This document shows, piece by piece, positions 2,294-60,952 of a stretch of 64,000 bases of DNA (within the stretch, counting starts at the first letter, position 1; each line of letters starts with the position of its first letter). A program made the translations under genes and the position numbers. Source of the stretch: an uncultured Pseudomonadales bacterium (lineage in GTDB: Bacteria; Pseudomonadota; Gammaproteobacteria; Pseudomonadales; Pseudohongiellaceae); contig CALSTS010000007.1 in the NCBI GenBank assembly GCA_943789335.1, positions 1-64,000 of the forward strand. Direction: 5' to 3'. A model generated the notes under the pieces. The model saw only the letters and a list, made by a program, of their open reading frames with translations, searched no databases and had not been told where the DNA came from.

Positions 2294-4060
2294 TTATATT
2301 TTACCTAGAATCTTTTGCATTGCTGCTACCAGATCTTGAGCAGATTCATCTGAAACTTCTTGGGCGCGCCAAGCAATAATATTATCAGGCCTTACTAACA
2401 AGGCGCCGGTTTCTGATATGTCTCTTACTCGAGCAAAATCTCCATAGACATCCTCATAATCTTGCCCAGGGCCAATGATATGTAAATTAACACTAAGACC
2501 ATTTATATTTTCAATCTCTGTTAAAGCTGCACGCCATTGGTCTTCACCACCCAAGCCGGTAATTAATGAGAACTGACCTTTACCACAAATATCTACCGTC
2601 GAGACTTTTTGTTGTTGCGGATCAATCAACCATACATGAGGGATCATCGCTCCTGGACGACTACTGGCTTGATGATAAAGTTCTCTGTCTCGCTTGAATT
2701 CTTCATCAGGACTGCCATCTTGCACTACTGCAGAAGACTCATAACGCATATTCATTTCCACACCATGGCAGTTATAAATATATTGCGTGCCCTCTACCGC
2801 AAGACGTAAATTTTCTCTTTGTTCTTCAGCCTCAGGCGTATTCAATTTACGCTTAGCAATACTTTGAATCTTTTGTTCAGGGCTATCATTATTCGCCAAT
2901 CCTAAGGCTCCCATGATTGGTCCAAGGTCTCCTAGACTTTTTGTCGCGCGTTTAACAATCTGTTCACCTACCGGTATACGTTCATCGTCATACGAATCAA
3001 GCAAGCTTGATTCCGCTTTACCTTTTATGACCAAAGCTAGTTTCCAGGCTAAATTAAAGGCATCCTGAATTGAGGTGTTAGAACCAAGGCCATTCATTGG
3101 GGTGTGGCGATGTACTGCATCACCCATACAAAATACTCGGCCATCCATATTCTTCTTGGCATACATACTGTTGACTGTCCAAGTAGACGTTGAGTCAATT
3201 CGAATTGGAATCTGATCATCACCGATTAATTGATGAAGAACAGCTTTAGCCTCATCATCAGTATAATTTGGCGGACCTGCATTAATATCATAGCCCCAAA
3301 TACACAACCATTTATTCCATGGCCGCACCATTCTTATCAATGGAACCCCCAGTCCAGCTAATTCTCCACCAGGCTGAATCAGCCAATACAAAAGGCTGGG
3401 GCGGTGAGCCACATATTTTGTTAAATCTGCTTCAAAAACAATATTCATAGACCCTGCCATGCCCATTTCACCTTCCATCGGTAAGGCAGCATCTTCGGCT
3501 ATTTTTGAATTACCGCCATCTGCACCCAGCAAATATTTTGATCTGACCTGAAATTTTTGCTGCGTAATTAGATCAAGCAGTGTAGTTGTCACACCATCAG
3601 CATCCTGCTCAAAGGATATATATTCAGTATTAAAGCGTACCTTTGATCCCCTATGAGCTGCGGTACGGGTGAGAATAGGTTCCAATAAGTTTTGCGGCAA
3701 ATCGAACATCTTTGCAGGACTCGACATTTCATAATCAGCTTTCCGAGCTGGCGGCATTCCCCATGCCAAGACACGTGCTAACTCTTCACCTGCGAGGCTG
3801 GCCGCAAATGTATTTTCGCCCATGAGCTCTTGCGGAGAAGCCAAAGCCAGACAATCATCTTCTACCCCTAAATCACGTAATACTTCAACTGTACGTTGGT
3901 TGGTTATGTGTGCTCGGGGTGTCCGGCAAGTCCAGGCAAATTTATTGATTACCATATTATCAATGCCATACGTGGCTAATAATGCCGAAGCACTAGCACC
4001 TGCGGGTCCTGTTCCAACAATCAACACGTCTGTTTCTATTACTGGTAACTTATCACTCAT
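2294..4060 (-). CDS. FAD-dependent phenol hydroxylase, TfdB-like (2,4-dichlorophenol 6-monooxygenase family)
   Basis: A 588-residue flavoprotein aromatic hydroxylase that inserts one oxygen atom next to a phenolic OH, giving a catechol at the expense of NAD(P)H and O2. The Rossmann FAD motif GTGPAG is at 16-21, the DG motif (GADGGNS) at 179-185 and the GD motif (GDAVHRH) at 313-319. Stretches such as PRAHITNQRT, LMGENTFAASLAGEE, RPWNKWL and NGLGSNTSIQDAFNLAWK closely recall TfdB of Cupriavidus 2,4-D degraders, and the length matches (about 590-600). It diverges from the LysR gene and faces away from the ring-cleavage genes, so LysR could control both sides. The substrate may be a plain, methylated or halogenated phenol; sequence alone cannot decide. 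Family confidence is high, chlorophenol specificity low. Confidence 0.85.
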   Translation of the reverse strand: MSDKLPVIETDVLIVGTGPAGASASALLATYGIDNMVINKFAWTCRTPRAHITNQRTVEVLRDLGVEDDCLALASPQELMGENTFAASLAGEELARVLAWGMPPARKADYEMSSPAKMFDLPQNLLEPILTRTAAHRGSKVRFNTEYISFEQDADGVTTTLLDLITQQKFQVRSKYLLGADGGNSKIAEDAALPMEGEMGMAGSMNIVFEADLTKYVAHRPSLLYWLIQPGGELAGLGVPLIRMVRPWNKWLCIWGYDINAGPPNYTDDEAKAVLHQLIGDDQIPIRIDSTSTWTVNSMYAKKNMDGRVFCMGDAVHRHTPMNGLGSNTSIQDAFNLAWKLALVIKGKAESSLLDSYDDERIPVGEQIVKRATKSLGDLGPIMGALGLANNDSPEQKIQSIAKRKLNTPEAEEQRENLRLAVEGTQYIYNCHGVEMNMRYESSAVVQDGSPDEEFKRDRELYHQASSRPGAMIPHVWLIDPQQQKVSTVDICGKGQFSLITGLGGEDQWRAALTEIENINGLSVNLHIIGPGQDYEDVYGDFARVRDISETGALLVRPDNIIAWRAQEVSDESAQDLVAAMQKILGKI

Positions 4061-4170
4061 GGGGAATTCACCTTATATTTCGTTCAATTTACCTGATGCA
4101 GATAAACTGTTGGAAAAAATTCTAACTAGTATGATGGTATGAGTTCCAATACTTTATTTTGACCAAATCA

Positions 4171-4186
4171 ATACCTAATATGGTAT
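4171..4186. promoter_or_regulatory. candidate LysR-type operator in the divergent promoter region
   Basis: An interrupted palindrome ATAC-N8-GTAT lies in the 182-base gap between the divergent TfdB-like and LysR genes. Chlorocatechol-type LysR regulators (CbnR, CatR class) bind ATAC-N7-GTAT-like elements, so place and shape fit, but the spacer is one base longer. A second GGTAT copy lies at 4136-4140. This is inference from position. Confidence 0.4.
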
Positions 4187-4242
4187 GACGATGTGTAATA
4201 TATGTTACTGGTACTCTAAAACATATAGCTAAGGAGGATCGC

Positions 4243-5127
4243 TTGTTCGACTTAAGAAAACTCAGACAATTTATCGCCGTCGCTGAAGAGCTGCACTTTG
4301 GCAGAGCAGCAATACGTCTGCATATGAGCCAACCCCCACTTTCTCGCAGTATTCATCAAATTGAAAAAGATCTTGAAGTCGAGTTATTTATTCGCCATCC
4401 GCATGGTGTTGAACTCACTAATGAAGGCGAAGTCTTTCTTAATGAAGCGCGTAATATTTTACTGAGCGTAGAACGCGCCTATGAGCGTACTTTGCAGGCA
4501 AAACGCGGTGAAATTGGCCGTTTAGTAATAGGTTATCAGGGCTCTACCGTTTTTGATTTACTGCCGCGTTTGATAGCTCGATTTAAGCAAGCCCACCCCC
4601 AAGCTCAAATCGAATTGCACAATATGAATAAAAACCAACAACTGCTTAATTTGCGCAACCACAGCATCCATATTGGCATCATTCGCCATGTCAATGATGA
4701 GCCCGGCATCACAACACACACCATCGCCAAAGAACCTATCTATGTTGCTGTATCCGACAGCCACTCACTTGTTAAGACTAAAAGCCTTGCTATGAAATCT
4801 CTGGCTGCTGAGGCCTTAATCGTATTCCCAAAAGCCAACCGCCCCAGCTTTGCTGATCAAACTATTGCTGAATGTCGTAAAGCAGGCTTCGTTCCCAACA
4901 TTGTGCAGGAAACCGAAGATGTCATCAGCGCTTTAGTTCTTGTTAGTGTAGGCCTCGGTGTTGCTCTCGTGCCACACTCAGCCTGTAACATTAAGATCCC
5001 TGATGTCACTTTTATTCCGCTTTCCAACCCTAAGTTTTATGCTGAACTGTGCTGCATACATTTAACTGAACGACGCGCCCCAGTATTAGAAGCCTTTTTA
5101 CAAATCATTCAAGACAGCTCTCAATAA
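4243..5127 (+). CDS. LysR-type regulator of the aromatic cluster (CatR/CbnR-like)
   Basis: A 294-residue LysR-family activator. The winged helix-turn-helix fills residues 1-60 (LRQFIAVAEELHFGRAAIRL, then MSQPPLSRSI), with the effector-binding domain after about residue 90. The start is TTG at 4243, chosen because a perfect AAGGAGG lies at 4231-4237, five bases upstream, and the HTH begins at once. The gene is transcribed away from the TfdB-like gene and toward the dioxygenase-DLH-cycloisomerase genes, the usual arrangement of CatR/ClcR/TfdR regulators, which respond to muconates. It therefore probably senses a (chloro)muconate and controls both directions. The effector is inferred from context only. 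Confidence 0.88.
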   Translation: MFDLRKLRQFIAVAEELHFGRAAIRLHMSQPPLSRSIHQIEKDLEVELFIRHPHGVELTNEGEVFLNEARNILLSVERAYERTLQAKRGEIGRLVIGYQGSTVFDLLPRLIARFKQAHPQAQIELHNMNKNQQLLNLRNHSIHIGIIRHVNDEPGITTHTIAKEPIYVAVSDSHSLVKTKSLAMKSLAAEALIVFPKANRPSFADQTIAECRKAGFVPNIVQETEDVISALVLVSVGLGVALVPHSACNIKIPDVTFIPLSNPKFYAELCCIHLTERRAPVLEAFLQIIQDSSQ

Positions 5128-5176
5128 ACTCTCAGTACTATTGTAGTAAGCTTGCAATAACCTTTTAGGTATCAAG

Positions 5177-5212
5177 CAAGAGCACAATCGGTATTGGATT
5201 ATTGTGCTCTTG
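5177..5212. terminator. strong stem-loop between the LysR gene and the dioxygenase gene
   Basis: A perfect 12-bp inverted repeat, CAAGAGCACAAT / ATTGTGCTCTTG, with a 12-base loop, 50 bases after the LysR stop and 71 before the dioxygenase start. There is no T run behind it on either strand, so it is not a classical intrinsic terminator. It could end or stabilise the regulator mRNA, attenuate the downstream genes, or be a protein-binding palindrome. Confidence 0.45.
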
Positions 5213-5282
5213 GCTATTATTGTGCCTAAAATTGAATAAATAAATGAATAAATAAATGAATAAAACATTGGAGATTCCCGCG

Positions 5283-6044
5283 ATGACTGATCAAGAAAAC
5301 CTGCAAAGAACGCAATTAATTGTCGGTGATATTATTGATGCTATTAGAGGCGTACTACGTAAGCACGAGGTCACTTTTGATGAATATCGTGCCGGTTTTT
5401 TCCATCTTATTGAATTAGCAGAAGCGCATGAAGTTCCATTGTTATTAGATTGTTTTTTAAATCAAACCATCTGCGATATAGAAATGGAAACTCGACAGGG
5501 TAGTCGCTCAAATGTTGAAGGTCCTTACTTTTTACAAGGTGCGCCGATGGTGACCGATGCTATAAAAGTCCGAGGTGATACTAAACCTATGCTGATTCGT
5601 TGCCAGGTAAAAGATTTACAAGGCCAGCCAGTTGAAGGTGTTGTCACTGATATATGGTTTGCTGATTCTAATGGTGATTACAGCGGCTACAGTGAAGATT
5701 TTCCCATAGAATATTTTAGAGGAAAGGCAACGACAGACAGCGAAGGGAAATATGCTGTGATGGGATCAATTCCAAAAGAATATCCAATGACTTCGAATGA
5801 ACATGGCCCTACTGGCAGCATTATTGAAATGCTTGGCGGTCAGGGCATGCGTCCACAACATGTGCATTTTAAATATTTAAAAGAAGGTTATGCACCCTTA
5901 ACGACTCAAGCCTATTTCAGTGGTGGCCCTTATCTAAATGAGGATCCGGTTGGCGCTGTATTTGATGACCTGACCCATGAACTAAAAGATGAAAACGGTG
6001 TTGCAGTATTAGAGCTAAACGTCGTCTTAGACCCAGCTGCATAA
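5283..6044 (+). CDS. intradiol ring-cleavage dioxygenase, chlorocatechol 1,2-dioxygenase-like
   Basis: A non-heme Fe(III) dioxygenase that splits catechols between the hydroxyls to cis,cis-muconates. Start: the ATG at 5283 has GGAG nine bases upstream; the in-frame ATG at 5256 (nine codons earlier) sits in an AT repeat with no ribosome site. From 5283 the protein is 253 residues, the length of chlorocatechol dioxygenases (about 250-260), well below classical catechol dioxygenases (about 300). The four iron ligands are visible: Y133 (DYSGY), Y167 (KEYP), H193 and H195 (RPQHVHF). Stretches such as EGPYF, YFRGKATTDSEGKY, GPTGS and APLTTQAYFSGG recall TfdC. It opens a run with the DLH (24 bases on) and cycloisomerase. 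Hydroxyquinol cleavage is the main alternative, but the cycloisomerase argues for a muconate product. Confidence 0.87.
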   Translation: MTDQENLQRTQLIVGDIIDAIRGVLRKHEVTFDEYRAGFFHLIELAEAHEVPLLLDCFLNQTICDIEMETRQGSRSNVEGPYFLQGAPMVTDAIKVRGDTKPMLIRCQVKDLQGQPVEGVVTDIWFADSNGDYSGYSEDFPIEYFRGKATTDSEGKYAVMGSIPKEYPMTSNEHGPTGSIIEMLGGQGMRPQHVHFKYLKEGYAPLTTQAYFSGGPYLNEDPVGAVFDDLTHELKDENGVAVLELNVVLDPAA

Positions 6045-6068
6045 TATTTAAAAAAGGTCTTACTAACT

Positions 6069-6782
6069 ATGTGCCATGACACTACGCCAAGCTCTTTACC
6101 GGCTCCAGGGAATTACCAATTAGGTAATTCCAATGGCTTAAAGTATTGGGATTTTTCTAACGCCGCTAGTAAGACGGATTCTGATGTGCGAGTTGCACTA
6201 CTAACAGACATCTATGGTTGCAATGACTTTTATCAAAGTATGTCAACACACTTTGCTAACCAGGGTTGGCAATCTCACTTGATAGATTTATTTGCAGATT
6301 TAGGTGAGCTGCCAGAAGTAACCCGAGAGGCTGCCTTTGAGCGGCGCCATAAATTAAATGATCAGGAATGCTGTGATCTTATTGCTCAATATATTCAAGA
6401 TAACAATATTACTGCAGTCGTAGGTTTTTGCTTAGGTGGAAATTTTGTATTTGAATTAGCCAGACGAAATGTAAAAGTTAATTTAATCGCTTACTATCCA
6501 TTCCCTGCTGGTTTACCTAACGAGAATGGACTTGATCCTGCCTTTAACTACCTAGAGCTCTTACAAACCGAGGTTACCGTTTTAATTGGCGATGATGATG
6601 ATCGTGTCGGCCTGGAAAATGTCACAAAACTAAAAACCATCAGTGAATCAAATGCTGCACTCAGCGTAAATGTCTATTCAAACAGTAAGCATGGATTTTT
6701 AGAAGATTTAGATAGTGAAGATCCAACTTTAAAACAAAATGCTGAAGATTCTTTAGCTACTTGCCTCGATAAAATTTCATAG
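6069..6782 (+). CDS. dienelactone hydrolase family protein (TfdE/ClcD-like)
   Basis: A 237-residue alpha/beta hydrolase of the dienelactone hydrolase family, expected to open a dienelactone to maleylacetate. The cysteine nucleophile sits in GFCLGG (C121), the acid is in GDDDDRVG (probably D178) and the histidine in KHGF (H208). The usual EIFG near residue 36 of characterised enzymes is DIYG here (D47), a conservative change at the residue that orients the cysteine. It is cytoplasmic, with no signal peptide. It follows the dioxygenase by 24 bases and precedes the cycloisomerase by 12, so the three are almost surely co-transcribed. A DLH rather than muconolactone isomerase plus enol-lactonase points to the modified (chloro)ortho pathway. 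Confidence 0.85.
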   Translation: MCHDTTPSSLPAPGNYQLGNSNGLKYWDFSNAASKTDSDVRVALLTDIYGCNDFYQSMSTHFANQGWQSHLIDLFADLGELPEVTREAAFERRHKLNDQECCDLIAQYIQDNNITAVVGFCLGGNFVFELARRNVKVNLIAYYPFPAGLPNENGLDPAFNYLELLQTEVTVLIGDDDDRVGLENVTKLKTISESNAALSVNVYSNSKHGFLEDLDSEDPTLKQNAEDSLATCLDKIS

Positions 6783-6794
6783 AAGTCTAGATAA

Positions 6795-7916
6795 ATGAAT
6801 ACAGAAATTATCGAAAAAATTGACACAACTATTATTGATCTTCCCTTAAAGCGAATTCATAAATTTGCAGCGACCACGATTAATTCTAAGTCTTTTGTCA
6901 TTGTTCAAATTTATACAAAAAATGGTGTTGTTGGCATCGGTGAAGCTACCACTCCTGGTGGACCTTGGTGGGCGGGCGAAGCGGTTGAGACCATTAAAGT
7001 AATGATAGACAGCTATCTTGCACCGGCTTTAGTGGGCGAGAACGCATTGCAAATTAATACCTTATTACAAAAAATGGACTGTGTTGCAGCTAACAACCCA
7101 TTCGCGAAAGCTGCGCTTGAAATAGCCTTACTTGATATAAAAGGTCAGGTCTTGAGGGTTCCAATCTATGATTTATTCGGCGGCCTATCACGTGAATCCA
7201 TGGCCCTTAAATGGCCATTGGCTCAAGGAGACGCCAAAGCTGATATAGAAGAAGCAGAGCAATTGATGTCCTCCAATATCGCCCAGGAATTCAAGGTGAA
7301 AATGGGTTACATGAGCCCAGAGGATGACGTCAATTATATTGCTGAATTGTGTCGAGGCTTAAATGGCAAGGCGACTTTATTAGGCGATTTAAACGCCACT
7401 TGGAGTGAACTGACAACACAAAAATATTTGCCCGATCTAGCGGCACATGGCATGGATATGATTGAGCAACCCGTCGCTGCCTGGAACCGTCAAGCTCTGG
7501 CAAGAATTAGAGACTTTTCTCCAATACCCATTCTTGCCGATGAATCTATTTGTACACCACAAGATGTAAATGAAATAGGCAATCTCCATGCCGCTGACAT
7601 GTTGTCATTAAAAATATTTAAACACGGCGGCTTAACCAGAACCCATCAGATCATACAAATTGCTGCAGCCTTCGGGATCTCCTGCTATGCCGGCACTTTT
7701 CTGGAAAGCTCAATCGGTACTGCTGCATTTATGCACTTAGTTGCATCACAAAATAATATTGATGGTGGCAATGAATTGGTCGGACCTATCTGGTTAGCAG
7801 ATGATATCGTTCAACAGCCAGTGCAATACAAAGATAATCATATTTGGGCAAAACAAGAACCCGGCCTAGGCGTAAGCTTGGACCAAGATAAGCTTTCTCA
7901 CTATCAGCGTGTATAA
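6795..7916 (+). CDS. muconate / chloromuconate cycloisomerase (enolase superfamily)
   Basis: A 373-residue enolase-superfamily lactonising enzyme. Active-site residues fall exactly where they do in Pseudomonas putida muconate lactonising enzyme: K167 and K169 (FKVKMG), metal ligands D198 (GDLN), E224 (IEQPV) and D249 (LADES), and K273 (LKIFKHGG). The N-terminal capping domain covers roughly residues 5-130, the barrel the rest. Length equals the family norm. It converts cis,cis-muconate or chloromuconate to a lactone, between the dioxygenase and the DLH in the pathway. TfdD-like and CatB-like enzymes cannot be told apart here by eye; the neighbouring DLH favours a chloromuconate or methylmuconate-type pathway. 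Confidence 0.88.
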   Translation: MNTEIIEKIDTTIIDLPLKRIHKFAATTINSKSFVIVQIYTKNGVVGIGEATTPGGPWWAGEAVETIKVMIDSYLAPALVGENALQINTLLQKMDCVAANNPFAKAALEIALLDIKGQVLRVPIYDLFGGLSRESMALKWPLAQGDAKADIEEAEQLMSSNIAQEFKVKMGYMSPEDDVNYIAELCRGLNGKATLLGDLNATWSELTTQKYLPDLAAHGMDMIEQPVAAWNRQALARIRDFSPIPILADESICTPQDVNEIGNLHAADMLSLKIFKHGGLTRTHQIIQIAAAFGISCYAGTFLESSIGTAAFMHLVASQNNIDGGNELVGPIWLADDIVQQPVQYKDNHIWAKQEPGLGVSLDQDKLSHYQRV

Positions 7917-8970: not shown

Positions 8971-9801
8971 TTAAATTCCTTCTTCAAGTGCTCCATCAAA
9001 TTCAGCATATTCACTAGGCACACAGATAAATTCCTGCAAGCGCTCTCCAGGCATTAACGCAAAAGTTTTCGTAAGATCGGACCATGACGCTCCTTCTCCC
9101 CAGGCTTTCTCATCATACATATCCATCACCAGTTCAAGTCGGTCGTAGCTCACACGGGTATAACGTTCAATCAGGTGGAAAGCATCACTTGGTCGGTGCC
9201 CAACCCCCTGAGTAAGTTGTATCAAACCGTTGAAACCAATGGTATCTACCACCAAAGTATTACCTTACCAATAAGCAATTGAATCGCCCATGTAGGATGG
9301 GTAAACATCTTCCGGATGTTCATCTGCCAGCCATAGATTTCGCCATTCCCGATGGTATTCCAGCATTTGAATGATGCGCTCACCGGAACGTGAATAGACA
9401 AACTCGAATGGACCAAACGCAACATAGTCCAGGTTCCCCGGCATTGCTACAGGTTCGCAATCCTTGCCTGGATACTGCCCACCAAGGGTATTGGTAGGTA
9501 CGCCATTAATGGTGGTTGTAGCAGTTCGATCTCCAACAGCAGGATGAGTAATCGATTCCATCCGTAAATTCTCTATACCCCATGGCGTTAATGGCGGTGG
9601 GGGCGTCTGCATACCATAATTAAAATTATTGCCCACTCCAGGCAACTGGCCCCAAACACCACTCAGATCTCTTGGATCAAAAGAAGAGTCATCCTGTGCT
9701 GAAACTATCGAAAAAGGCAGAAGCAAAAAGCACGCGACCAGGATTTGTTTAAATTGTTTCGCTACTCTAACTAAATCTCTCACTATATTTCTCACTCTCA
9801 T
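8971..9801 (-). pseudogene. secreted conserved hypothetical protein with one in-frame stop
   Basis: One reading frame carries the whole protein, interrupted by a single TAA at 9265-9267. The first part (178 residues) has a signal peptide (VACFLLLPFSIVSA), then DPRDLSGVWGQLPG, DCEPVAMPG and QMLEYHREWRNLWL. Past the stop it resumes as GNTLVVDTIGFNGLIQL and VGHRPSDAFHLIERYTR. Relatives, widespread in proteobacteria and acidobacteria and of unknown function, have W-E-G-D-T at this place, so the stop most simply replaces a Glu codon (GAA to TAA). The start at 9801 has AGGAAA just upstream. It is the last gene of a minus-strand group with the DUF6152 gene and the 10304-12432 gene. A point error in the sequence would restore it. 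Confidence 0.75.
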
Positions 9802-9824
9802 CGTCTTTCCTGTTTCGATATTGA

Positions 9825-10220
9825 TTATTGGCGGGGAGTTGGTGCCGGCATGATGGTGCCATCGGCAAATTCAACACTCCTGAATACTGCTGTACGATCT
9901 CCATTTATTGCCGGGCTTACCACTAATGTCACTTCATCACCCGGTTTGAGCGTATCAGCAGCAAATCCTTTCTGGCGCATACCTCTTAGGGTATCAGTGG
10001 TTTCAACCGCCCAGAGCTCTTCTTCACCATTTTCATTAATCACTATAATGGTCATATGCGAATGCGGATTTCCCATACGAAAATTGCCAATCGTGCCCTG
10101 CAGAGAAACACCAGGACCACCCATATTGTATTGCGGATAGCCATGATGGGCTGCCGTCTGGATTGAAAATCCCAATAAACATGACAGGACTACTATTTTA
10201 AAATTGAAAATTATTTTCAT
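9825..10220 (-). CDS. DUF6152-family secreted small protein
   Basis: A 131-residue exported protein. The ATG at 10220 is preceded by AAGGAG with an eight-base spacer; an earlier in-frame TTG at 10226 has none. The signal peptide runs to about IQTAAHH, and the mature part begins with a His pair, followed by a small beta domain (SLQGTIGNFRMGNPHSHM, GDEVTLVVSPAINGDRTAVF). This matches DUF6152, a family of unknown function often encoded beside larger secreted heme or propeller proteins, as here. It lies 23 bases before the interrupted 8971-9801 gene and 84 after the 10304-12432 gene, so the three look co-transcribed. Its role is not known. Confidence 0.75.
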   Translation of the reverse strand: MKIIFNFKIVVLSCLLGFSIQTAAHHGYPQYNMGGPGVSLQGTIGNFRMGNPHSHMTIIVINENGEEELWAVETTDTLRGMRQKGFAADTLKPGDEVTLVVSPAINGDRTAVFRSVEFADGTIMPAPTPRQ

Positions 10221-10303
10221 AAGCAAATCTCCTTAAAATCTATATTCACACAAATACGAGCATTAGCACTGAATTTAATGAGTAAGCCTTTTAGCCATTG
10301 TTA

Positions 10304-12432
10304 TTAATGTGCCAAAGGATGTGGTCTAAATTGAAACTGGGCTGCTGTAGGTGTCTGGCCTTTCCCACCCTCAATATGCCAGGGGTTACGCACTTCGTTG
10401 GCCGCCCAAATTCCACGCCCTTTCCAACCGATATAAGGATTGTCAACTCGCCCGCCCATGGACCGTGTATAAAACCCCATCGGATAAGGCACACGCATGA
10501 CAAACCATTCTTCTTCTACAGGATCGAAACCCATTAATGAATCAGAATTAGTGCCTGTCAGATAGGGCACATTTGTACCAAAGCCCAGAATATTAAACTG
10601 ATCAACCCAACTGCTGTACATATAATCCGCACTACCCGCTATTGCTTCAGCATTATCCATATCGGGTGTTGGTAGAGGGTATAAGGTCCAGCCTTCTGCA
10701 CAGTGCTGAGGATCAAGCTTGCCAGGGCCTTCCTGAATCTCACAAAGCCTGCGATCAAATTTTCCCAGATGTCCACTGCCTGCCAATGCTGTCCAAACCA
10801 CACCATTACGGTCCGTTGCAGATCCGCGCGGAAGCGCGGCAATCTGTCCAGGGGCCTCATCATTATAAAATGGAGGCTCGTAAATTTCTGTAGTACAACT
10901 GTAAGGAGGGTTTTCACCAGGATGAATTCTCACCATCGCACCTGGGTTAGTTCCGGTAAAGGCATACCAAACTGATCCGTCCAGAGGGTTCCAGGAGATA
11001 AAATATCCATTCATATTAGCCAGTTGATCTTCATCCTCATCATAGGTGCCGTTTTGGTTAGTATCATAATAAGCTGGACACCATCCTGATGCCGCCGTTA
11101 TATCACCCGTTTCATCCCAAATTCTGGGTTTAAACCAGCCGATAGCATTACGTAATCCCAATGCTGCCTGATAAATAGTATCGTCTTCATCCTCAGCAAA
11201 TGCTGCATGATGGGTGTTAAAACATGTATCTATTAGTTCAAACTCTCCGCTGTCGATATCGTAAAGCACCTGCTGTCGGCTTGCTGCCTGCAAAGGGAAG
11301 AAATCAGCAAAGGTATTCCCGGAAGTGCAGCGATCCGGGTTTCCTGCTGGACGAAAACTGTGGTTAATTACAGCTCTGCCATCAGGCAATAGTCCCTGAA
11401 TTTCTGAGCTTCCATATTCCCGGTAAATAATCTCATCACCCCAATACAATGATGGAAATTCCATTGATGGCGGTGAGAAAGTATTGATGTCTGTGAGTTC
11501 AACGCCCTGAGCATAGGGAAGTTCAACTTCTTCAACGCTATGTGTAATAGGATCCAGAATCCACATGACACCCAGACTGTAATCAGTCGCAATCATTTTG
11601 CCATTTGCATTGACGCTTGGGTCGCGTGGATCCGTGCCATACATGTCATGCAGAAAGGAAATATCACTGGCAATGTCCCATTGCGTGATTACTACATTCC
11701 TCTCTACTCCCTGAGGACGAGGCGGAACAGGTGGTAAATCACCTTCAGCTATGCGATCTATCCAGTCAGCATAAACTTCCAGCCCACGATCGTAACCCAT
11801 TGAGTTCATCATCCGAACCATCGTATTACCAAGCTGACCCTGGCGTATTCTATGATTCCAGGCTTCTTCGGTGGAATTAAAGCTACCCATCTCAGGGTTA
11901 AGTTCCCTGGTAATCTTGCTGCCCATTTGGTGACACATCAGGCAGTTTTGCATCGCAGCTTTAACTCCCCTTGCGTTTCAGCCCCACCGAACAGTGGAAA
12001 CTCTTCTGGGTCAGGAAGTTCTAATAATGAATTCCAGTAACTTGCCGGATAGTATTCAGCGGCTGCAGCTTCACTTGGCGCGACGACTGCTGTTAATGCC
12101 AGCTGCTGACCAGGTATAGAATCGACACGTGGAGAATCAATCAAGCCATAACCACGTACAAATACTTCATAAGAAGCCTCCGGTAAATCAGGAATCACAT
12201 AACGACCCTGCTCATCAGTAATGACTGTTTTACTGTATCCCGTAGGCAAATCATAAGTCTCAGCGATAACCCACACGCCTGCTTCAGGACCATTGGTGCT
12301 GGTAACAACACCGCCAATATCATCTTCATCAATCTGGACAGCTGATGATTCAGCAGCAATACCAGGTTGACTGATCAATGCGACTAACAATCCTGCAATA
12401 AAAAGGGCCATAGGCTGCTGACTGTATTTCAT
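10304..12432 (-). pseudogene. secreted carboxypeptidase-regulatory-like / c-type heme / propeller-like protein, frameshifted
   Basis: Two overlapping minus-strand frames make one protein of about 709 residues. The first (12432 to 11938) has a signal peptide (LISQPGIAA) and a carboxypeptidase-regulatory-like beta-sandwich (GGVVTSTNGPEAGVWVIAET, TDEQGRYVIPDLPEASYEV). The second (to 10304) opens with a heme motif CLMCH and continues with a large domain of repeated short beta motifs (VNANGKMIATDYSLGVMWIL, GSATDRNGVVWTALAGSGH, GFDPVEEEWF), possibly a propeller. The frame changes at a GGGG run on the coding strand (11967-11970); a fifth G would join them as GAETQGGVKAAMQNCLMCHQ. I recall related full-length proteins with the same order. 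The start has GGGAGA upstream. A redox or sensory role in the periplasm is possible but not shown. Confidence 0.75.
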
Positions 12433-51096: not shown

Positions 51097-53118
51097 TTAG
51101 AAACGATACCTGGCGCCTAATTCTAAAGATCGCCCGCTTTCCGGCGCAAAACCTCTCAAAAATGATGTCGACAACCTGATTTCTTCATCTGTGATATTGC
51201 GCAGCTTTGAAAATAATATCAATTCGCCATTACTCACATTATTTATTGTGTAATTTAATTCGGCATCCAATCGCGTATAACTTCCTGTTGGGAATTCATT
51301 TGCTCCAGGATTATTTTGAGAAAAGGCATGTAGCATAGATAAAGATGATGACAAGTTACCATTATCATAATTTATTTCAGAACCAATTCTATATGGTGGC
51401 ATTCTAGGAACATCTCCGACAGTATCAAGTTTTCCTATAATGCTATCCGCGAATAACCTGGTCGCCCACTCATTATTTATAAGGTAATTTAAATCAATCT
51501 CCAAGCCATAAAATTTTGCATCTTCTTGCTGGTATCTTCTAACAGGTATCTCATTTATTTCAGCGCCTGTAGTCTCAAGAAATATATAATCTGAAAAGCG
51601 GTTATAAAAAAATGTTAATGTTGAATCCAGATCTCCGTAATCAAAATATACACTTAAATCACTGTTATTCGCTTTTTCTTCCTGCAAGGCAGTATTGCCT
51701 ATTTCACATGCTGCTGACGCAAAGTGCACAACACAATCATTTATATTCGTTAGACTAAAATTTGAATATAACTCTTCAGTCCATGGAGATCTTTCTGAAT
51801 GTGAAGTGGCTAAACCAATTGTAAAATATGCATTCAAATCATATAAAACTGATCCTGAATAACTGAATGTAGAAAAACTTTTTCTAGGTGCCACATTATT
51901 TTTAGTGGAAAATTCATCACGATTTATTCTAGCGCCAAATTCAAATGTAAAGGGGTTAATATGCAAAGCTTCTACCAGATATAAACCAAATGAATCTGTA
52001 TCAGTTTCAGGAATAAAACTCTCTTCTCCAACCGCGCCAAATAATTCACTATTGATTTGCAAACCCAGAATGCCGTGCCAATTATTTATTTCATAATGTG
52101 ATAGTTGTAAACGCTGTGAAACAGAATCGTTACTAAAACGTGTACCTATTGCACCATCTCCTTCCAGCTCCACATGTTGGTAATTTGTTAAGCTCATACG
52201 ATAAGAGATGTTCTCAATAAAGCTATTAAAATCATTCCATTCGCCTCTCAAATCATAGCGTGTACGTTCCAAATCTATACTTGTGAAATCTGCTTCTTCT
52301 GCCTCAGCGGGAACTTCTTCATGTTCATGAGCGTGAATTCCAGCAGGCAAGCCATAAAATGTTTCCATCTCATTTATTGCAAAACCGATATAACCATTAT
52401 TGAAAATATAGGATAAGCCAACTGTAGCTGAAGTTGAACGACCTCCGGTATTGGCAATAAAGCCATTGAAGTTTTCTTCATCTGGATCATCCATCCATCT
52501 CGGATCGATGGCTAAACCAGGCACTTCCAGATCATTCCAATCTCTATTAGTAAGATCCAAATGTATCGCAACCGGGCCTACAGGAAATTCTAATTCTCCC
52601 ACAAAAGTATCCATATCACTTGCTGTGTTATGACGGAATTCAAACTCAGCAGACGCAGGCAATAATGACTCAGCGATGCGGCTGTCCACTATATTGACGA
52701 CACCCCCAATCGCTCCACCACCATAAAGTAAAGTAGAAGGTCCTCGCATAACTTCAATGCTATCGGCCAGCATAGGTTCAATCGTGTTGGCATGATCAGC
52801 TGAGTTGCCTGCAGCATCAGCATTGATCATTCCATTACTTAAATTCATCACTCGCCTGCCTTGCTGACCTCTAATAACAGGTTGCCCAACTGCCGGGCCG
52901 AAGGATGCATTATTAATACCTGGCTGAGTTGCCAATGTATCGCCAACCGTGGCTTTCACTTTACTTATTAATTCGCCTCCAGTGATTATAGTGACAGGCA
53001 ATGCTGTTTCAGAATTCCTGACATGCACACCTTCAATAACTAATTCAAAGTCAGCTTCTTGAGCATTTAGATCTGTCATTGCCAGCAAAGGCAATAAATA
53101 CAAAAGTTTTGATTTCAT
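51097..53118 (-). CDS. znuD: TonB-dependent receptor, ZnuD-like (zinc uptake)
   Basis: A 673-residue outer-membrane TonB receptor. Start at 53118 gives a clean signal peptide (LLYLLPLLAMTDLNAQ); the longer frame to 53157 has none. The plug is at about 45-150 (ATVGDTLATQPGINNASFGP, PVIRGQQGRRVMNL, EVMRGPSTLLYGGGAIGGVV), the 22-strand barrel fills the rest and ends in aromatic F. Extracellular loop 262-268 is HAHEHEE, a His/Glu-rich metal trap as in ZnuD of Neisseria and Moraxella. Metal specificity is inferred from this loop and the His-rich next gene. A 17-bp palindrome lies 11 bases upstream of the start. Confidence 0.85.
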   Translation of the reverse strand: MKSKLLYLLPLLAMTDLNAQEADFELVIEGVHVRNSETALPVTIITGGELISKVKATVGDTLATQPGINNASFGPAVGQPVIRGQQGRRVMNLSNGMINADAAGNSADHANTIEPMLADSIEVMRGPSTLLYGGGAIGGVVNIVDSRIAESLLPASAEFEFRHNTASDMDTFVGELEFPVGPVAIHLDLTNRDWNDLEVPGLAIDPRWMDDPDEENFNGFIANTGGRSTSATVGLSYIFNNGYIGFAINEMETFYGLPAGIHAHEHEEVPAEAEEADFTSIDLERTRYDLRGEWNDFNSFIENISYRMSLTNYQHVELEGDGAIGTRFSNDSVSQRLQLSHYEINNWHGILGLQINSELFGAVGEESFIPETDTDSFGLYLVEALHINPFTFEFGARINRDEFSTKNNVAPRKSFSTFSYSGSVLYDLNAYFTIGLATSHSERSPWTEELYSNFSLTNINDCVVHFASAACEIGNTALQEEKANNSDLSVYFDYGDLDSTLTFFYNRFSDYIFLETTGAEINEIPVRRYQQEDAKFYGLEIDLNYLINNEWATRLFADSIIGKLDTVGDVPRMPPYRIGSEINYDNGNLSSSLSMLHAFSQNNPGANEFPTGSYTRLDAELNYTINNVSNGELILFSKLRNITDEEIRLSTSFLRGFAPESGRSLELGARYRF

Positions 53119-53128
53119 GATTCTCACT

Positions 53129-53145
53129 GTTTCAAACATTGAAAC
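53129..53145. promoter_or_regulatory. palindrome just upstream of the ZnuD-like gene
   Basis: GTTTCAA-ACA-TTGAAAC, seven-base arms around three bases, ends 11 bases before the ATG of the receptor gene (53118). It could be an operator such as a Zur or TetR-type site, but it is not close to the GTTATA-type Zur consensus I know, so the regulator is open. It might also form a small mRNA hairpin over the ribosome site. Confidence 0.4.
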
Positions 53146-53183
53146 ATAACCGCTCATAAGCGAGCAGTCAGACTAGCGCAGTG

Positions 53184-53465
53184 TTAAGAGTAAAAATGTG
53201 GGGGTGATCGACCTTGATAGGAGGGGTAATGAGAAGAAAAATAACCTTGCTCAGCAAATACACTAAAGTAAATTAATTTCGCTTCGAAGGGCTTGGTAGA
53301 AGTTTGAGTGACAATGCCTTGATCATGGGAATCAAAATGACAAAGCACACAATCAATTTGGTGCTCAATATGATCATGTATAGGTGAATTCTGAACAGCT
53401 TGAACACCAAGCAGCGTAAAGGCCAGGAACCAAACTAACAGCTTTTGTTTACTCAATTTAATCAT
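53184..53465 (-). CDS. small His-rich secreted protein beside the zinc receptor (putative metallochaperone)
   Basis: A roughly 93-residue protein with signal peptide (LLVWFLAFTLLGVQAVQNS) and the mature segment HDHIEHQIDCVLCHFDSHDQ, rich in His, Asp and Cys. It ends in RSPPHFYS; an R-x-PP ending is usual for small DUF2946-type or zinc-chaperone-like proteins found next to TonB zinc receptors. It is upstream of and in tandem with the ZnuD-like gene (gap about 65 bases), so both are probably expressed under metal limitation. The start is uncertain: ATG 53465 has AAGG with no spacer; TTG at 53456 fits AAGGA better. Confidence 0.6.
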   Translation of the reverse strand: MIKLSKQKLLVWFLAFTLLGVQAVQNSPIHDHIEHQIDCVLCHFDSHDQGIVTQTSTKPFEAKLIYFSVFAEQGYFSSHYPSYQGRSPPHFYS

Positions 53466-53536
53466 CCTTCGTAGATGATAAGGCAAAGCTACTGAAATTC
53501 AACTATAAAATTTTTTACTTTAACGAATTAGTCTGC

Positions 53537-56876: not shown

Positions 56877-56975
56877 GGTTATTGAGTATGCTTAAGTGCT
56901 ATACACTCTTCAACAAATCTTTTTACTTATGCTTTAATTGAACAATACTACTCAGTTTAACGAGGATCAAATTTG

Positions 56976-58844
56976 ATGAATGTCTCAACTCGGCTATCTA
57001 CTCTGCTATTTTCTATAATTCTTGGATTTACTTGCCTATCAGCCTCAGCTCAGGAACCAGAGCAATATGTCTGGGATCTGACAGATCTCTATGCCAGTCA
57101 AGATGATTGGGAAGCCGCTTACACTGATCTTGAAAACCGCTTACAGAACGTAAATCGCTACCGCGGCACTTTAGGGAATAGCGCTGAAGCAATGGCTGAA
57201 GCTCTTACTACTATTTCAAATGCCTACAAAGAACTAACCCGGGTCTATATCTATACAAGCCTGCGCCGAGATGCTGACCAGCGAGACCCCGCTGAACAAA
57301 CTCGCTTTGGAAGAGCTATGCAGCTTTACAATGATTGGGGAGAAGCAACATCTTGGATGAATCCGGAAATCTTGTCTGTCGGGACAGAAACTATCCATCG
57401 ATTTCTTGATGAAGAACCGGAACTGGGAAATTTTACATTCATGTTAGAAGACACTCTACGTATGGCTCCTTATACCTTAGATGAGCAAACTGAAGCCATA
57501 TTGGCGCAGGCTTCACTACTATTGGCTTCACCTGAACAAATCTATCAAATGTATGCCAATGCCGATATTCCCTGGCCTACCGTAAATTTAAGCGATGGCG
57601 AAGAGGTCCAGCTTACACAAGCGGCCTACAGCTTTTACCGCGGCGTTGAAAATCGTGAAGACAGAAAGCTGGTGTTTGATACCTTTTGGGGTGCTTGGCA
57701 GCAATATGCAGACGGTATGGGCGCAACACTCAGCTCAGAGGTCCAAGCTAATTTGTTTTCTGCTCGAGCCAGGTCTTATGATTCAGTCCTGCAACAAAAT
57801 CTGTTTCAGGATGGCCTGCCACCTGAGACATATACTCAGCTAGTCACCCAGGTGAACAACTCACTACCTATCTTCCACCGATATTTGAGTTTGCGCGGGC
57901 GCATGCTGGGTATTGAAGATCTACGCTATTACGATATCTACCCGCCACTGCTTGAATTGGATACTGGGGTTTTCGACATTGAACGCTCGAAAGAAATCAC
58001 CTTCGAAGCACTGCAACCTTTCGGTGAAACCTATCTCAATTTACTGGCTGAGGGTCTTTCCCAAGATTGGATGCACAGCCATCCGCAACCCGGCAAAACG
58101 TCCGGTGCTTATATGAGCGGGTCTGCCTATGATGTACACCCTTATATCCTACTAAATCATAATGATGACTATAACGCCCTATCAACATTTGCTCATGAGT
58201 GGGGACATGCTGTGCATTCCCTTCTAGCCAATGCTAACAACCCCTGGGAAACTGCTGATTACTCAACCTTTATTGCAGAAATGGCCTCAACCATTAATGA
58301 GATTTTGCTAGAGGAATATATGATTGCTAATGCTGCAACAGATGAAGAGAGACTGTTTTATCTGGGCAATGCCTTGGAAAGCATTCGGGGCACTTTTTTT
58401 CGCCAAACTATGTTTGCAGAATTTGAGTTGGCTATTCATCAGATGGCAGAAAATGGAGAGCCCCTTAACGGCACAGTCTTGAGTGAAACCTATGGCGATC
58501 TGTTGAAACGCTATCACGGACATGATGAAGGTGTACTAACAATTGATGACGCCTATAGCGTTGAATGGGCCTACATTCCTCACTTTTACTACGACTTTTA
58601 TGTGTTTCAGTATGCTACCAGCATTACTGGTGCTGCCTGGTTTGCCGAAAAATTTCTAGCCGGTGACGTGCAGGTGCGCGATAACTTTTTGAATGTCCTT
58701 AGTGCAGGCGGCTCTGATTACCCTCACAACATTCTGTTAAATGAGGCTGGTTTAGATATGACTCAAGCAGAGGCCTATGAGCCTGTGATTCGCCGTATGA
58801 ATTCTTTAATGGATAGAATTGAAGGTATTCTCGACCAGCAATAA
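56976..58844 (+). CDS. M3-family oligoendopeptidase (PepF-like) with signal peptide
   Basis: A 622-residue M3B zinc peptidase. Zinc motif HEWGH is at about 407-411 (TFAHEWGHAVHSL), with the third-ligand Glu in FIAEMASTINEILLEEY. The oligo_peptidase N-domain is at about 110-190. Start: the ATG at 56976 has GAGGA nine bases upstream; the TTG at 56973 is less likely. The protein has a clear signal peptide (LLFSIILGFTCLSASAQ), unusual since most oligoendopeptidase F are cytoplasmic. It may degrade short peptides in the periplasm. The N-terminal YVWDLTDLYASQDDWEA is typical. Confidence 0.9.
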   Translation: MNVSTRLSTLLFSIILGFTCLSASAQEPEQYVWDLTDLYASQDDWEAAYTDLENRLQNVNRYRGTLGNSAEAMAEALTTISNAYKELTRVYIYTSLRRDADQRDPAEQTRFGRAMQLYNDWGEATSWMNPEILSVGTETIHRFLDEEPELGNFTFMLEDTLRMAPYTLDEQTEAILAQASLLLASPEQIYQMYANADIPWPTVNLSDGEEVQLTQAAYSFYRGVENREDRKLVFDTFWGAWQQYADGMGATLSSEVQANLFSARARSYDSVLQQNLFQDGLPPETYTQLVTQVNNSLPIFHRYLSLRGRMLGIEDLRYYDIYPPLLELDTGVFDIERSKEITFEALQPFGETYLNLLAEGLSQDWMHSHPQPGKTSGAYMSGSAYDVHPYILLNHNDDYNALSTFAHEWGHAVHSLLANANNPWETADYSTFIAEMASTINEILLEEYMIANAATDEERLFYLGNALESIRGTFFRQTMFAEFELAIHQMAENGEPLNGTVLSETYGDLLKRYHGHDEGVLTIDDAYSVEWAYIPHFYYDFYVFQYATSITGAAWFAEKFLAGDVQVRDNFLNVLSAGGSDYPHNILLNEAGLDMTQAEAYEPVIRRMNSLMDRIEGILDQQ

Positions 58845-58856
58845 TCGTATTGCTGG
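58835..58856. terminator. stem-loop over the stop codon of the PepF-like gene
   Basis: CCAGCAAT-AATCGT-ATTGCTGG, an eight-bp perfect stem with a six-base loop, overlaps the TAA stop (58842-58844). No T run follows on either strand, so it may be a weak rho-independent terminator, or protect convergent transcripts; the minus-strand gene ends 55 bases away. Confidence 0.4.
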
Positions 58857-58910
58857 CCTTGAGATATTCCTACTTTTGTTTATGTCACATTTTATTGACA
58901 GCAAGCGTCC

Positions 58911-60104
58911 TTAAAAGAAAGCATCAACCTGAATAGTAAAACGATTATCGTCAGCTATCGGACCTTCTCCAGATAAATCTGAAAATTCACCTCTCAGGTT
59001 AATATTTTGACGAATGTAATGTGATACGCCGAGAGTGATTGCATCTATTTGATACAGTCCATTACTAATTTCATAAGAATCATAACGTGCTATTGGCGTC
59101 ACAAGAGTTCTTCCTTCCCTTTGCAAGTTATAAAAACCCTGTATATAAAAAGAATCATTTGCTTCCTCACCATTACCACCGATCAAATCATCATTTGACC
59201 GCATAAACACAGCATTAATAATCAGATTATTTAGGCTTACCCACTCCACATCAAGCGCCGCCCGAGAATAATCTCGATCTGCAAGGAAGCAGGGATCTCC
59301 AATATTTTTTCCCCCCGCACTCTGCATAGAACAACTGCCATTTATGTACATGCCCCCTAAAATAAAATTCGGGTTAAATTCGTACGCAACTCGACTAATT
59401 ACCGTACTTGCATCTTCACCCTCATTGTCATTAGCGACTCCGCTGAAACTTAAGCCATAAAAGAAATTATTGGCCTTGCCAAATACAGTCAGATTCTGGC
59501 GCAAACGTCGTAGACTTGAATCATTATCAGCACCACCAAAACTCTGATCGATAACAGAATTTCTGTTTATGGTGACTCGTCGAGAATTAGTATAAGAATT
59601 ATAAGGATCAAAATAGAAACTTGGAGCTCTGGAAACCTGAAAGTTAAGTGCAGAATTCAGGCTAAAAGTGCCCTGAATTATGCTGGCTTTGACATCAAAG
59701 TCATCTTCATCTTCTGCCTCCAACTCTATAAAACCGGAAAACCCCTGCGCAATCTGACCTGCCACCATAAGTTCTATTTCATGAATTGCTCGTACTTTGG
59801 TTTCACCGCTATCTTTCTTATCGAAAGGTCTGGCGATAATTCCTGCGCTTATAGGCAGTATACTTTCGAGTACATTTGAATTCCCACGAGGGTTGGGTCG
59901 AGCTGGTCTCTGCTGCCCTGGCATCACATAACCCTGTAATTTGTAGTTCCTGCCAATGCCATTTAAGGCAGGAACTGCTGAATGACAGGAATTACAATTA
60001 ATATTTTCTCGCTCTGCAAAGGCTGGGATAGCCTGACTCGAAGTAGTGAACATGAGCAAAAAAAGACCAACAACAAAACTATAGCGGTTAACTAAATTTT
60101 TCAA
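58911..60104 (-). CDS. outer-membrane barrel-like protein with an N-terminal c-type heme
   Basis: A 397-residue secreted protein. TTG start at 60104 with GGAGG four bases upstream; signal peptide (VGLFLLMFTTSSQAIPAFA). The mature N-terminus carries a heme motif CNSCH (about 37-41) after ERENIN, followed by NGIGRNYKLQGYVMPG. The remainder alternates hydrophobic and polar residues and ends in aromatic F, like an outer-membrane beta barrel (ELMVAGQIAQGFSGFIELEA, NLRGEFSDLSGEGPIADD, TIQVDAFF). A single heme before a barrel could link to extracellular electron transfer or to heme-dependent insertion; no partner genes are visible, and no function is known to me. Confidence 0.68.
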   Translation of the reverse strand: MKNLVNRYSFVVGLFLLMFTTSSQAIPAFAERENINCNSCHSAVPALNGIGRNYKLQGYVMPGQQRPARPNPRGNSNVLESILPISAGIIARPFDKKDSGETKVRAIHEIELMVAGQIAQGFSGFIELEAEDEDDFDVKASIIQGTFSLNSALNFQVSRAPSFYFDPYNSYTNSRRVTINRNSVIDQSFGGADNDSSLRRLRQNLTVFGKANNFFYGLSFSGVANDNEGEDASTVISRVAYEFNPNFILGGMYINGSCSMQSAGGKNIGDPCFLADRDYSRAALDVEWVSLNNLIINAVFMRSNDDLIGGNGEEANDSFYIQGFYNLQREGRTLVTPIARYDSYEISNGLYQIDAITLGVSHYIRQNINLRGEFSDLSGEGPIADDNRFTIQVDAFF

Positions 60105-60235
60105 AATGCCTCCAAAATTTATTTAAATGTTGAACACTAATTATTTCAACATTACATCCTGCGGCCAGAAATCACTTGATATATGTCAGAGGGACGGAAA
60201 TAATCCAAGCACCAATTATGAAGGAGGTTATTGTC

Positions 60236-60952
60236 ATGCGCTTAATCTATCAATTACTGACGGTTCTACTGTTTGCGTTAATGGCCTGCAGTGCGAATGC
60301 TGAAGTGAGTGAAGATACTAGGGAGTTTGGCGGTCTGGATGTCAGATTTCGTGTGATTCTGCCTAATAACTTCGACCCCTCCCAAACTTATCCAACAATT
60401 CTACAATTTCCTGGCGGCTCCCAGACCTGGAATATTGTAATTGGCAGTACCGATGCAGACTGGCGAGAAAAAGCAGAAAGCGATGGTTATATTGTCATCA
60501 GCCCTGCTGCCCCAAATGGCCAGTTATTTTTTCAGGGAGGAGATAGAGTTTTCCCGGAATTCCTCGAATACATTCTTGCAACTTTCCCTGTAGCAAATAA
60601 TAAACTGCATGTTACCGGCATATCCAACGGGGGATTAAGCGCATTTCATGTTGCTTCTTTGTACCCGGATTATTTTATTTCTGTCACTGGCTATCCAGGT
60701 TTACTTAATGGCGCTTCTAATGACAGGCTTGAAGCTCTACGTCCGTTATGTATTTATATGCACGTCGGTGATCGAGATTCCGCCTGGCGTTCTGCAATGC
60801 AAAACCAGTTTCAAGATCTACAAAGAGATGGTTTTAACATCGATTTCAATGTGGAAAGTGATCAAAACCATGTGCTGGATGTTAGAAAAGATAATTTACG
60901 AAATCGTTTATTCGCAGAACTAGAGCGTGCACGACCTGACTGCTCAAACTAA
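60236..60952 (+). CDS. secreted alpha/beta hydrolase, PHB-depolymerase/feruloyl-esterase-like
   Basis: A 238-residue hydrolase. ATG at 60236 is chosen because AAGGAGG lies at 60221-60227, eight bases upstream; longer frames from 60176 lack it. Signal peptide LLTVLLFALMACSANAE; a Cys sits at 18 but LMAC is a poor lipobox. Catalytic residues: nucleophile S130 in GISNGG, Asp near D181 (VGDRDSAWR), H212 (DQNHVLD). The N-terminal VRFRVILPNNFDPSQTYPTI and FPGGSQTW are typical of the poly(3-hydroxyalkanoate) depolymerase/esterase family (LpqC-like). It diverges from the heme-barrel gene with a 131-base gap. Substrate unknown. Confidence 0.82.
   Translation: MRLIYQLLTVLLFALMACSANAEVSEDTREFGGLDVRFRVILPNNFDPSQTYPTILQFPGGSQTWNIVIGSTDADWREKAESDGYIVISPAAPNGQLFFQGGDRVFPEFLEYILATFPVANNKLHVTGISNGGLSAFHVASLYPDYFISVTGYPGLLNGASNDRLEALRPLCIYMHVGDRDSAWRSAMQNQFQDLQRDGFNIDFNVESDQNHVLDVRKDNLRNRLFAELERARPDCSN

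Follow-up and report, generated by a model that had tools for sequence, protein, structure and literature searches.

The minus-strand gene at positions 58911–60104 of the window (the whole 64,000-nucleotide stretch of DNA that was analysed, from an uncultured Pseudohongiellaceae bacterium) encodes a Cyc2-like fused cytochrome-porin of 397 amino acids, which begins with a TTG start codon and is a diverged relative of Cyc2. Proteins of this kind have already been described. Specifically, Cyc2 fuses an N-terminal cytochrome part, which carries a single c-heme, to a porin predicted to have 16 strands (Keffer et al. 2021, PMC8406198), and its biochemical characterisation as an Fe(II) oxidase in the same paper contradicts the sequence-only reading of this DNA, in which heme-tagged porins had been called poorly known. 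What is new here is a supported branch of 46 sequences, including the window protein, whose barrel is acid-rich and strongly conserved. The protein is best read, with moderate confidence, as an inward electron conduit in the manner of Cyc2 that would oxidise a dissolved metal cation, with Fe(II) as the first candidate.

A GGAGG lies directly upstream of the TTG start, and the encoded protein runs from a signal-peptide-like segment ending in SQA, through AIPAFAERENINCNSCHSAVPALNGIGRNYKLQGY, into a strand-rich part with a terminal phenylalanine. The signal peptide (residues 1–25; 60030–60104, minus strand) was assigned by eye, with a likely cut near SQA. It is followed by a mono-heme c domain (residues 26–80; 59865–60029, minus strand) of the pattern AIPAFAERE...CNSCH...PAL...GR..K..GY, in which CNSCH (residues 37–41; 59982–59996, minus strand) is the putative heme-binding motif and the sole CXXCH of the protein; shuffling the protein produced a CXXCH by chance in 4 of 20000 cases. 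The predicted outer-membrane barrel (residues 85–397; 58914–59852, minus strand) closes with F397, and the earlier description of CNSCH after a signal peptide in a protein ending in F is therefore accurate, the signal being judged by eye. Relative to its nearest relative (locus L043, 86% identical), the gene shows a dN of 0.075 and a dS of 1.11, which indicates that it is under purifying selection and has been kept. Base composition lends no support to a recent foreign origin, the GC content of the gene being 0.403, while stretches of the same size from the window average 0.404. The family libraries offer no clear name for the protein, since NCBIfam has no match, Pfam just a sub-threshold magnetochrome match over the heme motif, and the PDB none by sequence and five weak ones by profile (best E 0.11); plasmid records contain three weak matches.

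The AlphaFold2 model, built from 42 aligned sequences (mean pLDDT 82.8, pTM 0.82), has sixteen barrel strands across residues 85–396, with short turns on the same side as both termini, and a heme domain of low confidence (block pLDDT 48–79). The sequence-only reading had placed a single c-heme in front of an outer-membrane barrel and had named structure and barrel prediction as a check; one CNSCH, sixteen predicted strands and matches to porins bear it out. Foldseek ranks classical porins of the OmpT and OmpF types first, with no OprO or OprP among the best 50 matches listed. VIA-align, which re-examines Foldseek matches (so that a family missing from its list is not thereby ruled out), is headed by OprO (4rjx, 4rjw) and then OprP (2o4v_A), with Z of 25.2–25.1, 306–307 residues aligned, an rmsd of 3.6–4.2 and 12–13% identity. 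Omp32 (1e54, Z 24.3) is less than 1 Z behind these, which by the rule of the tool is a tie; given this tie and the lack of OprO/OprP among the 50 Foldseek matches, what the fold indicates is a 16-strand porin and not Cyc2 in particular. At E values up to 1, Pfam detects Porin_4 in 14 and Porin_O_P in 4 of the 42 aligned members (best Porin_O_P match E 1e-4), and neither of them in the window protein itself.

The window protein shares several features published for Cyc2. After a signal peptide (again by eye) it has one CXXCH close to its N-terminus, and it exceeds the minimum Cyc2 length of 365 aa, carries a C-terminally fused barrel with sixteen strands in AlphaFold2 and porin folds at the top of both structure searches, and has a PXL (here PAL) shortly after CXXCH. 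For the porin of Cyc2, the entries 4RJW and 2O4V have been cited as homologs in structure, and the cytochrome is placed at the periplasmic mouth (PMC8406198); a likeness to OprO/OprP, though weakly specific, is found here at VIA-align ranks 1–3. The consensus AXPXFAR[Q/K][T/Y] that precedes CXXCH in Cyc2 is absent from the window protein, which has AIPAFAERE at the same spacing and keeps CXXCH, PXL and AxPxFA. This consensus is no sharp border, as its strict form, AXPXFAR[QK][TY], occurs in just 15 of the 46 branch members and 12 of 29 distant Cyc2-like proteins; the looser AxPxFAR is present in 33 and 21 of these, respectively, and PXL in all 46 and all 29, with 3–5 residues between the two motifs. 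The combination of the heme motif, the barrel and the OprO/OprP likeness cited for Cyc2 is therefore better read as a Cyc2-like fused cytochrome-porin, and the protein is named Cyc2-like and not Cyc2 because the full consensus is missing.

A scan of 84,980 species genomes returned 51 loci, 45 of which (L043–L087) are relatives along the barrel, while L088–L093 match only around the N-terminal part. Among the 45, L080 and L081 are frameshifted, L082 is cut off, and L066 and L077 are without an N-terminal start. The carriers are mostly gammaproteobacterial or unclassified proteobacterial MAGs (including Pseudohongiella sp., L046; Ca. Tenderia, L051; Acidiferrobacterales and Thiotrichaceae), together with Nitrospirota, Emcibacter, Methylomirabilota and Colwellia sp. 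75C3; a literature search returned no paper pairing Pseudohongiella with Cyc2. A quick maximum-likelihood tree built from 75 rows (midpoint-rooted and with some long branches) puts the 46 branch members on one side of a branch with an SH-aLRT of 99 and groups the window protein with L043–L046. The tree and the counts over 46 and 29 sequences exclude L080, L081, L082 and L093 (broken, cut off, or with a picked frame free of CXXCH), L008 and L025, unnamed copies of named loci, and L028, L033 and L040, in which the script found no ORF bearing CXXCH (a later check shows one in L028); the 42-sequence alignment also omits L050. CXXCH is present in all 46 close and all 29 distant aligned relatives, partly by construction because these rows were chosen for having it. 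A fairer check is provided by the 45 close named relatives (L043–L087), all of which keep the motif, L081 in a shifted frame. The 29 distant Cyc2-like proteins have the same N-terminal heme module as the window protein, and the barrel search pattern is found in 30 of 49 named proteins, 19 of these 30 being without the heme search pattern. Sampling at the class level (369 genomes, that of the window included) gave matches that cover most of the protein at E <1e-49 in 8 other genomes. Matches of any kind, at E up to 1e-3, were found in 60 of the 369 and for the most part involve just the N-terminal region; among 194 nearer relatives, 13 have any match and 5, its own genome included, a close one.

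The barrel itself is the part in which the branch stands out. Across the 42 aligned branch sequences, 52 columns of the barrel reach at least 90% conservation, and Asp or Glu occupies 14 of these 52 in comparison to 28 of the 261 other barrel columns (Fisher p 0.003); Lys or Arg is found in 6 of the 52. More specifically, E109, E111, E127, E129 and E131 lie on the neighbouring strands 2 and 3, and their alternation suggests side chains that would face the lumen. Together with D132 and E133 they form an acidic stretch at 59706–59780 (minus strand), on strands 2–3 and the loop that follows, which is conserved in the branch. Most of the branch acids are missing from the distant Cyc2-like proteins, although E127, E131 and E109 recur in part of them. 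An acid-lined pore of this sort would fit a cation substrate. Between strands 5 and 6, the alignment and the AlphaFold2 model show a long conserved loop (residues 161–201; 59502–59624, minus strand), which appears to occupy the place of a porin constriction loop and may act as one.

The neighbourhood of the relatives points to electron transfer. Within 300 bp of the gene, the 44 named loci have 38 ORFs on the same strand, of which 23, one per locus, encode a CXXCH after a hydrophobic stretch; among ORFs lying 2.5–6.5 kb away on either strand, this is so for 3 of 177 (Fisher p 6e-18). The comparison is imperfectly matched, as the controls come from both strands and all ORFs were called mechanically. 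An overlapping three-heme ORF at L062 was left out of the adjacency count. Pfam identifies a Cytochrome_CBB3 monoheme neighbour at L049, neighbours with three heme motifs at L054 and two at L044, and at L074 a small cytochrome below the Pfam cut-off followed by an FCSD flavoprotein. The adjacent-cytochrome label requires at least 10 changes on the tree. This linkage supports an electron hand-over to a periplasmic cytochrome, and it makes the electron conduit the better of the two functions that the sequence-only reading had offered, the other being a heme-dependent porin. That reading had also called for partner cytochromes to be sought genome-wide: 22 PF13442 cytochrome-c matches, 21 of them over the cut-off, are indeed found in the window genome, but none is adjacent at the window locus.

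At that locus the gene is inverted between pepF and an esterase gene (site 56973–60949), as it is in one other member of the genus (G003). Three further members (G001, G002 and G004), whose genomes contain no match to the cytochrome-porin gene, have pepF and the esterase gene as direct neighbours with a short gap. This is a clean case of single-gene presence and absence, with the gene in 2 of the 5 genus members listed. A block at 60176–60189 (assigned to no strand), TTGATATATGTCAG, is identical upstream of the gene in L043 and may tentatively be seen as an Fnr-like box or as the −35 part of a divergent esterase promoter. The consensus of the Fnr-type box is TTGAT-N4-ATCAA, from which the block deviates at two positions; it also reads as the divergent esterase promoter. 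With at most one mismatch, the box occurs in 5 of 42 upstream regions and upstream of 8 of 288 control ORFs, and perfect boxes precede the gene in the relatives L060 and L061, which is a hint of Fnr-type regulation and nothing firmer.

Several other features of the window were noticed. A TonB-dependent receptor (Pfam) with a His/Glu-rich stretch is encoded at 51097–53486, about 5.4 kb from the cytochrome-porin, and by eye possibly serves metal uptake; upstream of it lies a small protein that has a CVLCH stretch and no Pfam match. Judged by eye, positions 2294–7916 hold a cluster resembling aromatic degradation (FAD monooxygenase, LysR regulator, intradiol dioxygenase, dienelactone hydrolase and muconate cycloisomerase), and 9265–12432 a series of proteins that appear to be secreted, one of which has an N-terminal CLMCH motif.

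Regarding the host, no match to the RuBisCO large subunit was found in the window genome (91% complete) or in the genomes of L043–L047; such a match is present in 18 of the 45 carrier genomes. Taken with the lack of a cytochrome neighbour, this makes an ordinary iron oxidiser that runs the Calvin cycle an improbable host, and the window organism is probably not one. A supplementary electron input to a host free of the Calvin cycle would be likelier than classical iron-based autotrophy. The cytochrome-c maturation gene ccmF is split over two reading frames in the window assembly (G000:C6:304632-306405, L113), which counts against the conduit. Of the four family relatives searched, three give an open full-length match and one only a fragment; in view of how many c-type cytochromes the genome has, the split is perhaps an assembly error.

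In the favoured reading, a small dissolved reductant, likeliest a metal cation and Fe(II) first, would enter the acid-lined pore of the 16-strand outer-membrane barrel. At the periplasmic end, the N-terminal domain would hold the single c-heme in place, and this heme would take one electron and pass it to a soluble periplasmic c-type cytochrome, from which it would reach the respiratory chain. In Ca. Tenderia electrophaga, a cyc2 homolog is expressed more at a cathode potential of 470 than of 310 mV (PMC5371394), and the gene of the Ca. Tenderia MAG (L051), which belongs to the window branch, is counted in favour of the conduit. Cyc2 orthologs are reported, without proof of iron oxidation, in sulfur-oxidising lucinid symbionts (PMC12442345). 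What diverged homologs of Cyc2 do is left open by Keffer et al. (PMC8406198). As a candidate substrate Fe(II) leads, and Cu(I) is the most interesting alternative.

The case for copper comes from the relatives. Of 45 loci (the window and 44 others), 10 have copper-export genes (of CopA or CusA type) no more than 6.5 kb away, when about 1.2 of 46 would be expected from all matches in the 45 genomes (Poisson p 5e-7). CopA-type ATPases are found at L047, L052, L053, L058, L076, L080 and L082, and CusA-type pumps at L045, L047, L050 and L069. A family search of the protein confirmed those at L045, L047, L050, L053 and L076, coordinates agree with genome-wide TIGR01511 or TIGR00914 matches at L052, L058, L069 and L082, and L080 has motifs only; a P-type ATPase at L066 was not counted because it has no CPC motif, and the neighbour counts omit L081, where a motif check showed no copper genes. 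The loci are not independent, yet on the tree no fewer than 7 changes are required for the 8 tips with this label. At L045, which is 60% identical to the window protein, the gene is flanked by a two-component system of Cu/Ag type and by efflux genes of the CusA/CzcA family. On this view the heme would oxidise or sense Cu(I) at the outer membrane and send the electron to periplasmic cytochromes, in the service of copper or silver tolerance. For iron oxidisers, copper-resistance PcoAB has been discussed as a possible porin-oxidase system (He et al. 2017, PMC5566968). The copper role is an unlikely account of the window protein: no copper gene adjoins either the window gene or L043, the window genome has no match to CopA at E 1e-100 and just one of CusA type, which lies on a different contig, the available flank at 35 of the 45 loci shows none, and metal-rich habitats can cluster such genes without any common function. 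The linkage nonetheless points partly to another metal. A bolder and slightly less likely proposal is that the whole branch is a copper-adapted offshoot of Cyc2 with a conserved acidic cation channel, which would oxidise Cu(I) or transfer electrons between copper and the respiratory chain. Its genes would have been brought beside cus/cop export genes repeatedly, and it would also occur in marine bacteria that lack RuBisCO; a literature search over titles and abstract openings returned no report of a copper-linked Cyc2 branch.

The remaining candidates are weaker still. Cyc2 has been proposed for Mn(II) oxidation in Ca. Manganitrophaceae (PMC9040806), the branch has Nitrospirota members and an acidic pore suits any divalent cation, but no manganese-specific neighbour was noticed by eye and a single heme near 208 mV, the potential measured for Cyc2 (PMC8406198), would be a poor one-electron oxidant of Mn(II), so that an Mn(II) oxidase is quite improbable. 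Only marginally less credible is a diffusion porin with a structural or regulatory heme and no electron flux, to which the fold match with general porins and the short heme module would be suited; the heme motif kept in all 45 close named relatives and the strongly linked cytochrome genes argue against it. An electron input linked to sulfur, in which the cytochrome-porin would work with partners resembling flavocytochrome-c sulfide dehydrogenase, is suggested by small FccA-like cytochromes (by eye) after the gene at L061, L074, L083 and L087, and by the FCSD flavoprotein at L074, with homologs at L083 and L087. Such neighbours are nevertheless confined to one part of the tree, with none seen by eye at the window locus or at L043–L046, and this role is very improbable. 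Finally, a conduit could run either way, but a single heme reached by a metal through a pore suits soluble donors, and characterised relatives oxidise Fe(II) (PMC8406198), which leaves outward flow, for instance to Fe(III) as an external acceptor, the least credible of these accounts.

The favoured reading places a Cyc2-like electron conduit in a marine bacterium that appears to be of the Pseudohongiellaceae type and in whose genome RuBisCO was not found. The conserved barrel, the linked cytochromes and the link to copper give practical ways to find out which metal these proteins oxidise, and the matter bears on the use of cyc2 homologs as markers of iron oxidation.

Among the closest known systems, compared by published criteria, is Cyc2 of Mariprofundus ferrooxydans PV-1 and Acidithiobacillus ferrooxidans, with which the window protein shares the signal peptide, the N-terminal CXXCH, PXL, a length above 365 aa and a predicted 16-strand barrel with OprO/OprP among the closest structures. 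It differs in having E-R-E where the Cyc2 motif has R-[QK]-[TY], in the conserved acidic barrel of its own branch and in a host without a RuBisCO match. Cyt572 of Leptospirillum (Cyc2 cluster 3), a characterised diverged relative according to PMC8406198, is likened here by description only, and differs by the unusual heme group reported in that paper. The phosphate-selective porins OprO and OprP share the 16-strand barrel and come first in VIA-align, tied with Omp32; they are without a heme domain, however, and the title of 2o4v names an arginine ladder, in contrast to the conserved acidic pore proposed here. MtrAB, MtoAB and PioAB likewise combine an outer-membrane barrel with c-heme for electron transfer across the outer membrane, but these use a 26-strand barrel and a separate decaheme cytochrome (PMC8406198); neither a separate multiheme cytochrome nor a 26-strand barrel is seen for the window protein, which instead unites one heme and sixteen predicted strands in a single chain.
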